Source of the DNA: Dehalococcoides mccartyi
Lineage (GTDB): Bacteria > Chloroflexota > Dehalococcoidia > GIF9 > DYGU01
DNA: 64,000 nt
NCBI GenBank assembly: GCA_020724525.1
Contig: DYGU01000001.1
Location: forward strand, 1 to 64,000
Direction of reading: 5' to 3'
Made by a program: the position numbers and the translations under genes. The notes under the pieces are model-generated. The model was not told the origin of the DNA. It saw only the letters and a list, made by a program, of their open reading frames with translations, and made no database searches. Shown here one piece after another: positions 26,141-28,699 of this stretch; positions within the stretch are counted from its first letter, which is position 1; each line of letters begins with the position of its first letter.

Positions 26141-27535
26141 TCACAGAATATATCGGCTAAGATCCTCGTCCTGAATGAGATTACCTATATGTTGACGCAC
26201 GTAGGTAGTATCAACGATTATCTTTTCGTTGGCTCTTTCTGGAGCCGAGAAGTTAATTTCCTCGAGTACCTTTTCCATTATAGTATTTAGACGTCGAGCA
26301 CCAATATTCTCACTACGTTCATTCATCAATTTTGCCAATCGACTAATTTCAGCGATGCCATCTTTAGTAAAAATAAGCCCCACCCCTTCTGTAGCCAGTA
26401 AAGCCTGGTATTGTTTGGTTAAGGCGTTGTGAGGTTCAATTAATATCTTTTCAAGGTCGTTCTGGCTAAGAGGCTTTAGTTCAACACGGAGTGGGAAACG
26501 CCCCTGAAGCTCAGGTATAAGGTCTGAAGGTTTATTCTGATAAAAAGCCCCGGCAGCAATAAAAAGGATGTGCTCAGTTTTTGTTGGACCGTAGCGGGTC
26601 ATTATTGTAGTACCCTCAAGGATAGGCAGAAGGTCCCGTTGTACTCCCTCACCAGAAATGTCTCTGCCAACTTCAATCCTCGGGCTAATTAGTTTATCCA
26701 ATTCATCAATGAAGACAACGCCATTTTCTTGAGCTCGCTCGATGGCTTCTTCAATCACCTGACTATAGTCAAGTAGTTTGCTGGCTTCAGCACGGACCAA
26801 GATGCGATGAGCTTCTTTAACGGAAATCCTACGCTTTCGCTGGCATTTCCCATAACCCTTGAGATCATCTACAAAGTCACTGAAATCGTCTCTGATTCCG
26901 CTATTTTCCTCATAGTAGTAAGATTCTGTTGGAGAACTAATACTTTGAGGACTATCCTCAACTTCAATTTCGACAATATGGTCATCAAGTTGATGGCTTT
27001 GAAGTAAATTAGCCACCAATTTCTGATTCAAAGTAGTAAGCTTTTTGGCTTTCTTAGCTTGGCTTAAATTACCTATTGCCAGTTGTTTTTTAACTGGTTG
27101 TTTCCGGTTTCCCTTGTTTAACTGATGACACAGGTAGTCAACCAGCTTCTCGGTAGCTATTTTTTCGGCTTTACTTTCCACCTCTTTGAGCTTTTCTTCA
27201 TAGACCTTATTAATGCTACTCTCCACAAGTTCAGAAATTATGGAATCGACATCCCTGCCTACATAGCCGACTTCAGTAAATCTGGTTGCTTCAACCTTGA
27301 TAAAAGGAGCGTTTATCATATCAGATACCCGGCGAGCTATTTCCGTTTTACCGACCCCGGTGGGACCAATCATAAGAATATTTTTGGGTGTAATTTCTTG
27401 ACGAAACTCTGGAGGCAACTTTTTTCGTCTCTCTCTGGTACATAAAGCTATAGCCACAGCTTTTTTAGCCTCTTCTTGTCCAACAATATACTTATCCAGC
27501 ACCTGAACAATTGCTTGTGGTGAGAGTGAAGTCAT
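26141..27535 (-). CDS. hslU: ATP-dependent protease ATPase subunit HslU
   Basis: AAA+ unfoldase that feeds HslV. I start it at ATG 27535 because GAGGAGG lies 4 bases upstream; the frame continues to 27577 without homology. The 464 residues show Walker A GPTGVGKT (57-64), FIKVEATRFTEVGYVGRDV (pore loop GYVG), a variable I-domain (about 110-240), Walker B VVFIDELDK and the sensor ERSENIGARRL. The partner protease gene hslV, normally immediately upstream, is not in the window. Confidence 0.95.
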   Translation of the reverse strand: MTSLSPQAIVQVLDKYIVGQEEAKKAVAIALCTRERRKKLPPEFRQEITPKNILMIGPTGVGKTEIARRVSDMINAPFIKVEATRFTEVGYVGRDVDSIISELVESSINKVYEEKLKEVESKAEKIATEKLVDYLCHQLNKGNRKQPVKKQLAIGNLSQAKKAKKLTTLNQKLVANLLQSHQLDDHIVEIEVEDSPQSISSPTESYYYEENSGIRDDFSDFVDDLKGYGKCQRKRRISVKEAHRILVRAEASKLLDYSQVIEEAIERAQENGVVFIDELDKLISPRIEVGRDISGEGVQRDLLPILEGTTIMTRYGPTKTEHILFIAAGAFYQNKPSDLIPELQGRFPLRVELKPLSQNDLEKILIEPHNALTKQYQALLATEGVGLIFTKDGIAEISRLAKLMNERSENIGARRLNTIMEKVLEEINFSAPERANEKIIVDTTYVRQHIGNLIQDEDLSRYIL

Positions 27536-27660
27536 TAGTCCTCCTCTTGCTGCAATCACTATGTGGGTTACAGACACTTACATAGGAACTACTACCTATA
27601 TCAGTTTAACACGAAGATAAGATGGTGAGCAACAGCATTATAGAAACAGGGTGAAATTTT

Positions 27661-27716: not shown

Positions 27717-27745
27717 TTGACAATTATTGAAATTAGTAGTATATT
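27717..27745 (+). promoter_or_regulatory. lexA promoter
   Basis: TTGACA (27717-27722), 17-base spacer, TATATT (27740-27745): a near-consensus sigma70 promoter. Transcription would start near 27752, about 39 bases before the lexA ATG. Confidence 0.8.
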
Positions 27746-27771
27746 TGTTTATAAAACACCTGTTTATAAAA
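27746..27771 (+). promoter_or_regulatory. Candidate LexA operator (palindrome plus direct repeat)
   Basis: TGTTTATAAAACA (27746-27758) is a palindrome with arms TGTTT/AAACA. The first 11 bases are repeated exactly at 27761-27771, so the two units are 15 bases apart. They cover the predicted transcript start, the right place for autorepression. The motif is unlike the E. coli CTG-N10-CAG and the Bacillus GAAC-N4-GTTC boxes. Confidence 0.5.
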
Positions 27772-27790
27772 TGGAAGTAAATGGTCTAAG

Positions 27791-28417
27791 ATGAGAAAAC
27801 CCGGTGTAAGTGAAACGAGGGATCGAGTCTTACAGTTTATTCACGATTTTATCGATGACAGGGGTTATGCCCCCACTGTAAGGGATATTGTCAAAGGTTG
27901 CCATCTTAGTTCTACAGCGGTAGTTCAGCATCACCTAAAGATTTTGGAAAGACAGGGGCATCTTCGCCGCGACCCTCAAGTTTTCAGAAGTATCCAACTT
28001 GTAGGAAAGAGGAATATTATTCCAGTACCATTGTTAGGAAATATAGCTGCTGGTAAGCCAATCCCGGTGCCGCGTTCTGAGACTTGGAGGAATGAAGCCT
28101 TAGAAACTTTAGACTTAACTGAAGAGCTAACAAAGGGGAAGGAAGTCTATGCCCTAAAAGTAAAAGGAGTTTCAATGATTGATGCTTTAGTGGATGATGG
28201 GGATATCATCTTAATTCAACCAACAAGTACTGCTGATGATGGGGATATGGTAGTTGTCTGGCTAAAACAAGAGCAAGAGGTAACTTTGAAGCGGATATAC
28301 CGGGAATCAGGGAAAATTCGTCTCCAACCAGCGAATACGTTGATCGAGCCAATATACCATAAGCCAGATAACGTAGAAATTCAGGGCAAGGTAATTGGAA
28401 TTATAAGAAAACTTTGA
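27791..28417 (+). CDS. lexA: LexA SOS repressor
   Basis: Represses DNA damage genes and self-cleaves with RecA filaments. The 208 residues comprise a winged-helix DNA-binding domain (1-70; recognition helix around SSTAVVQHHLKILERQGHL) and an S24 protease domain. The cleavage bond is Ala87-Gly88 (NIAAGKPIP), with catalytic Ser128 (GVSMIDA) and Lys167 (VTLKRIY). It has its own promoter with a palindromic site at the transcript start and is followed by a small SOS-linked gene. Confidence 0.95.
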   Translation: MRKPGVSETRDRVLQFIHDFIDDRGYAPTVRDIVKGCHLSSTAVVQHHLKILERQGHLRRDPQVFRSIQLVGKRNIIPVPLLGNIAAGKPIPVPRSETWRNEALETLDLTEELTKGKEVYALKVKGVSMIDALVDDGDIILIQPTSTADDGDMVVVWLKQEQEVTLKRIYRESGKIRLQPANTLIEPIYHKPDNVEIQGKVIGIIRKL

Positions 28418-28444: not shown

Positions 28445-28699
28445 ATGACTAAGTTGATGGAAAAACCGGAGGAATTAAAAGTGACAGCAAACATGGATGG
28501 TGTTCCCTTGTCCCTGTTTCGGAATGGGAGTTCCGAGCGGGTGACAAAAGTGTACCAACGCTGGCGGGTAGTTGAGCAATGGTGGGGGGAAGAGATTTCC
28601 AAGGAATATTTTATGGTGAAAACAGGCCATGGTCTTGTTTATGACATTTATCGGGATGTATTAACTAATTCCTGGTATCTTAGCCGGATTCACGATTAA
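28445..28699 (+). CDS. Small protein resembling the SOS-associated DUF6504 type
   Basis: An 84-residue protein whose C-terminal half reads YQRWRVVEQWWGEEISKEYF, then YDIYRDVLTNSWYLSRIHD. This W-rich pattern matches small proteins encoded near lexA or translesion polymerase genes in actinobacteria and relatives (DUF6504, from memory). ATG 28445 is preferred because GGAGG (28434-28438) lies 6 bases before it; earlier TTG/ATG codons lack one. It lies 27 bases after lexA and should share its regulation. Molecular function unknown. Confidence 0.65.
   Translation: MTKLMEKPEELKVTANMDGVPLSLFRNGSSERVTKVYQRWRVVEQWWGEEISKEYFMVKTGHGLVYDIYRDVLTNSWYLSRIHD

Follow-up and report, generated by a model that had tools for sequence, protein, structure and literature searches.

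The window analysed here is a stretch of 64,000 nucleotides from contig C17; the assembly measures 1.34 Mb and is 98.29% complete. The window carries a lexA gene on the forward strand (27791–28417), with a palindromic element and its direct repeat (27746–27771, forward strand) in the upstream region. The 208-residue product of this open reading frame (ORF) was identified as LexA by profile search (TIGR00498, 160.6 bits; cut-off 110.95) and also matches PF01726 and PF00717. Its AAG cleavage site, the serine of GVSM and the lysine of EVTLKR align with those of solved LexA chains; by this alignment, the protein has the Ala-Gly cleavage site and the Ser/Lys dyad of the family, at Ala87–Gly88, which we take to be the site of self-cleavage, and at Ser128 and Lys167, which presumably form the catalytic pair. 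An ORF for an 84-residue DUF6504-like protein (28445–28699, forward strand) starts 27 bases behind lexA and is probably co-transcribed with it, its match to PF20114 (21.0 bits, E = 4.1e-4) lying below the cut-off of 24.2. On the other side of the element lies a divergent AAA-ATPase gene, hslU-like by eye (26141–27577, reverse strand). The names pyrF, DUF951, ilvD, recN, rpsT, hslU and RNase H were given by eye rather than by family search.

LexA and the genes beside it

Sixty genomes labelled as the same order were searched, including that of the window. Of these, 41 have a LexA match; a single LexA was found in the window's genome, and G006, G038 and G049 hold a second one that is 57–58% identical to that of the window. 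The nearest named loci that carry this LexA belong to Dehalococcoidia MAGs and are at most 68% identical (the comparison may not include the record of the window itself). In a tree of 47 LexA rows, which was midpoint-rooted for drawing only and leaves out L026, the LexA of the window belongs to a group with support of 97/94 that numbers 26 rows (25 distinct) and whose recognition helix reads QHHL or QYHL. The same order also contains another LexA group, which has TYNL or AYNL in this helix and includes L027–L031. No promoter was called upstream of lexA at these loci, and in some of them the end of the upstream ORF appears rpsT-like by eye.

The DUF6504-like protein of the window is 40% identical, in an ungapped alignment of 84 of 84 residues, to the homologue in L023 (G011), which is encoded by the third gene of a lexA/Y-polymerase/DUF6504 operon. 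No polymerase lies between lexA and the DUF6504-like gene in the window. A Y-polymerase match (PF00817) was found directly behind lexA in seven f3 genomes (G009, G011, G037, G044, G050, G054 and G058), followed by a DUF6504 match in four of these (G009, G011, G044 and G058), with a stop inside the match in G009. Similar small ORFs lie behind lexA in L003–L006 and L008, and a different ORF comes next in L007, L009 and several other loci; at L009 (G003) the ORF directly behind lexA is recN-like by eye. DUF6504 matches occur in 31 of the 60 genomes. Since most of them lie away from lexA, and a second one is located on C21 of the window's genome, the family is not exclusive to the lexA cassette. 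The mutagenesis-type neighbours of lexA in the relatives fit a DNA-damage promoter.

The lexA promoter and its 15-bp array

The promoter scan placed a TTGACA-17-TATATT promoter at 27717–27745, with 11 of 12 consensus matches over the −35 element TTGACA (27717–27722) and the −10 element TATATT (27740–27745), both on the forward strand. Owing to this position, the element begins directly behind the −10 element and spans the expected transcription start, as the initial annotation had predicted; 19 bases separate its end from the lexA start codon. The −35 sequence TTGACA is common to all of the lexA loci for which a promoter was called (25 of 30, the window included; L027–L031 gave none). At the −10 position, 21 of the 24 other promoter rows have TACACT and the window has TATATT.

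The sequence TGTTTATAAAACA lies at exactly 27746–27758, where its TGTTT and AAACA arms form a perfect inverted repeat flanking ATA, and TGTTTATAAAA recurs at 27761–27771, a step of 15 bp. Both the palindrome and the repetition of its first 11 bases, 15 bases later, had been described in the initial annotation and were confirmed. When aligned with the promoters of relatives, the window reads three boxes in 15-bp steps starting at 27739. Box 1 (AAACACCTGTTT, 27754–27765, forward strand) is the main predicted LexA operator; its register is AAAC-ACCT-GTTT, it aligns with the boxes of the relatives, and it has inverted RAAC/GTTY half-sites with a spacer of exactly four bases at the lexA promoter. 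Box 0 (GTATATTTGTTT, 27739–27750, forward strand) is a degenerate LexA box overlapping the −10 element, and box 2 (AAATGGAAGTAA, 27769–27780, forward strand) is presumed, from its position and by analogy with L004 and L005, to be a decayed third copy. Boxes 0 and 1 should lie on roughly opposite faces of the helix because they are 15 bp apart. The palindrome is the junction of these two boxes, at which the right half of box 0 meets the left half of box 1, and the 15-bp step accounts for the direct repeat.

All window positions were scored with two matrices. The near matrix is symmetric and was built from 24 boxes of relatives chosen by eye, with the window, the near-duplicate loci L011, L013, L019 and L020, and the box-less loci L025 and L026 left out; the distant matrix was built from 19 boxes of 24 distant loci, with L040, L046, L050, L055 and L057 left out. 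Box 1 ranked first with the near matrix and fifth with the distant matrix, box 0 ranked fourth and 47th, respectively, and box 2 was at background with both. The exact consensus GAAC/GTTC was found in neither half-site of box 1, which has AAAC and GTTT. The same AAAC/GTTT half-sites are also present in the lexA boxes of relatives, and box 1 is one base from GAACACCTGTTT, the box upstream of lexA in L048. Judged by its sequence, the window box is a drifted variant of GAAC-N4-GTTC and not an exact consensus box.

The 25 promoter rows are related, three of them being nearly identical, and their counts are therefore not independent. RAAC-N4-GT was found within 51 bases from the −10 element onwards in 23 of the 25 rows (mean 0.67 and maximum 4 in 500 base shuffles), and the strict RAAC-N4-GTTY behind the −10 element in 10 of 25 (shuffle mean 0.09). 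The lexA promoters of same-order Dehalococcoidia carry RAAC-N4-GTTY-like boxes, some of which step every 15 bp, the repeat unit being RAAC-N4-GTTY plus three bases. Tandem boxes at this step were found in L003, L004, L005 and L006; L004 reads TGTTTGTA-GAACAATAGTTTATA-AAACACGTGTTCGG behind the −10 element, and L005 has three strict boxes there. The double box RAACN4GTTY-N3-RAACN4GTTY occurs at five places in 4 of the 60 genomes, all just upstream of lexA, compared with two places in two of the 60 genomes for its reversed control. Furthermore, TACACTTGTTN4GAAC, which combines promoter and operator, occurs at 11 places in 11 of the 60 genomes, each just upstream of lexA, with none in the control; the window's genome has no such match because its −10 element is TATATT.

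Beyond these rows, the strict RAACN4GTTY was found in the 140 bases upstream of lexA at 20 of 24 distant loci, that of L050 being at the far end. In Anaerolineae rows (such as L051–L055) the box lies between the −35 and −10 elements, and L038 and L043 have GAAC-N4-GTAC upstream. Four of the 24 distant loci have no strict box, among them L040 (titled Dehalococcoides); at L040 and L046 no box was seen in the 140 bases upstream.

The search for a wider regulon

The initial annotation had suggested scanning for TGTTT-N3-AAACA upstream of recA, uvrA and umuC-like genes, and regarded a lack of copies before other DNA-repair genes as a refutation. Four places were found in the genome against four in the reversed control, and this pattern was rejected as a regulon motif, so that in the annotation's own terms the literal motif is refuted; the three places other than that of the window lie inside ORFs (two) or 59 bases before an ORF (one), with no repair gene seen there by eye. 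A search with TGTTTRTARAAC, allowing up to one mismatch, gave 33 places against 28 in the reversed control and was likewise rejected, the window's being the sole exact match.

The strict RAACN4GTTY occurs at 54 places in the genome against 150 for the reversed pattern and is thus rarer than its control. Of these places, 47 lie inside ORFs and seven between ORFs. The intergenic places comprise that of lexA, one in a tRNA-like stretch (L070, by eye), one that follows an RNase H-like gene and does not precede it (L156), three beside which no repair gene was seen (L149, L153 and L159) and one in front of a pyrF-like/DUF951-like/dinB operon (C2:56722). At this last place AAACACTTGTTT, which is one base from box 1, lies on the minus strand (L165 4723–4734, G000:C2:56722–56733) approximately 60 bases before the pyrF-like gene, and the operon ends in dinB (PF00817). 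This is the sole promoter-like candidate besides lexA, and it is a weak one because the strict box is present at only one of nine pyrF-like loci near dinB, that of the window's genome (L110 has a relaxed box), because it misses the top 12 of the 52 genome sites scored with the near matrix, and because the promoter scan placed no promoter on it. As a separate observation, AAACAATTGTTC lies 63 bases before dinB in G033 (L113, 1406) and may be a dinB box in one relative.

The upstream regions of three repair genes were also read, in each case including the window's genome. A recA match over the cut-off was found in 55 of the 60 genomes, and no strict box was present in the approximately 170 bases upstream of recA at any of the 30 loci read. 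Within up to 450 bases upstream, the strict box was found at none of 29 uvrA loci (gene located in 29 of 30) and at none of 26 uvrB loci (gene located in 26 of 29). Further strict copies were thus not found before recA or these excision-repair genes, and no independent regulon supports the motif. Among the RAACN4GTTY places of the window's genome, none is convincing as the box of a gene other than lexA, although weaker boxes may exist elsewhere.

The probable operator, its alternatives and known LexA boxes

The marked DNA is, with high probability, an autoregulatory lexA operator that consists of box 1 as the main box and probably box 0 as a weaker one. The type of box is one already known from Bacillus and its allies, and the window contains a worn, repeated copy of it rather than a new kind of box. 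The initial annotation was very probably right in placing a LexA operator at an autoregulated lexA promoter; its TGTTT-N3-AAACA register could not be upheld, since RAAC-N4-GT is kept where the TGTT arm is absent. Its statement that the element differs from Firmicute SOS boxes is also contradicted, as AAAC-ACCT-GTTT belongs to the GAAC-N4-GTTC class described for B. subtilis (PMC3323433). Points that count against the operator reading include the half-sites, which are AAAC/GTTT and not GAAC/GTTC, the rank of box 1 with the distant matrix, which is no better than fifth, the choice by eye of the boxes for the near matrix, the lack of a convincing box at other genes and the four distant loci that have no strict box.

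The version of the initial annotation, in which a new LexA box TGTTT-N3-AAACA is centred on 27752 and the direct repeat supplies a second half or half-box, appears improbable. A relaxed form of it, TGTTY-N3/4-RAACA, does stand behind the −10 element in 13 of the 25 lexA promoters (shuffle mean 0.02), which is more than the number with the strict RAACN4GTTY and argues against the register preferred here. However, both half-site pairs are conserved, as expected of an array of adjoining boxes, and the counts alone do not fix the register. It is settled by L017 and L019, in which the TGTT arm has been lost and GAACAAATGTAC, with its RAAC-N4-GT, is retained, and by the strict box upstream of most of the distant lexA loci, including L036, L037 and L041, which have GAACN4GTTC behind the promoter and no TGTT arm. 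In addition, the spacing between the arms of the palindrome varies between three and four bases, whereas the spacing of RAAC-N4-GT is fixed throughout the 23 rows that carry it, and the genome shows no enrichment of the literal pattern.

It is very unlikely that a regulator other than LexA uses the repeat array as its operator, or that the array functions for the divergent AAA-ATPase gene instead. Promoter-like matches on the minus strand (9 of 12) overlap the array at 27766–27738 and 27751–27723; however, the boxes of the relatives lie behind the −10 element of lexA, all 11 of the combined promoter–operator matches precede lexA, and most of the distant lexA genes have a known LexA-type box in or near the promoter. 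An AT-rich chance repeat without function is scarcely credible. The palindrome alone is only mildly unusual, since the window has one copy of TGTTTNNNAAACA where 0.12 would be expected, and at least one copy was present in 12 of 100 shuffles. The two-copy direct repeat of 26 bases, on the other hand, occurs once in the window and in none of 100 shuffles with up to three mismatches allowed, which is far beyond chance; furthermore, the element is conserved across lexA promoters, and box 1 ranks first with a matrix built without the window sequence.

As a LexA operator, the array may work as follows. A LexA dimer would bind the 12-bp box 1 just downstream of the −10 element, and the weaker box 0 would probably be bound too. 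Bound LexA would keep RNA polymerase off lexA and the DUF6504 gene behind it. After DNA damage, LexA would be induced by RecA filaments to cleave itself between Ala87 and Gly88, and the promoter would be freed. The boxes of the array are of the GAAC-N4-GTTC class, with half-sites that have drifted to AAAC/GTTT, and are repeated in tandem.

A broader and rather doubtful possibility is that the QHHL/QYHL sub-clade of LexA forms a nearly private SOS switch, in which a self-repressing array stepped at 15 bp controls little beyond its own cassette (lexA, a Y-family polymerase and DUF6504, or a remnant of these). The genes recA, uvrA and uvrB would then lie outside the regulon, and the cassette of the window would have shrunk to lexA and the DUF6504-like gene. 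If this were true, the SOS regulon would here be reduced to lexA and a mutagenesis cassette, with recA outside it. For an uncultured Dehalococcoidia lineage, the comparison of promoters fixes the register of the predicted LexA operator, and it shows a known box drifting into a sequence that looks new when read alone. Of note are the array with its step of 15 bp, the AAAC/GTTT half-sites to which the boxes have drifted, and the fact that recA and the uvr genes are apparently not part of the regulon.

The LexA of Dehalococcoides ethenogenes, a green non-sulfur bacterium of the same class as the window organism, reportedly binds a sequence of the Gram-positive type (Fernandez de Henestrosa and coworkers, 2002). 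The window LexA belongs to the QHHL/QYHL clade, whereas L040 (titled Dehalococcoides) lies outside it. A literature search listed no title on a Dehalococcoidia LexA box. The GAAC-N4-GTTC LexA (DinR) box of Firmicutes and Actinobacteria, given for B. subtilis and M. tuberculosis in PMC3323433, is like that of the window a 4-4-4 palindrome at the lexA promoter; unlike it, the window has AAAC/GTTT half-sites, and its boxes are repeated at intervals of 15 bp, starting at the −10 element. The alphaproteobacterial LexA site, given in PMC3323433 as the direct repeat GTTC-N7-GTTC, resembles the window in its direct repetition of GTT-type half-sites; in contrast, the repeat in the window has a step of 15 bp and arises from tandem palindromic boxes.
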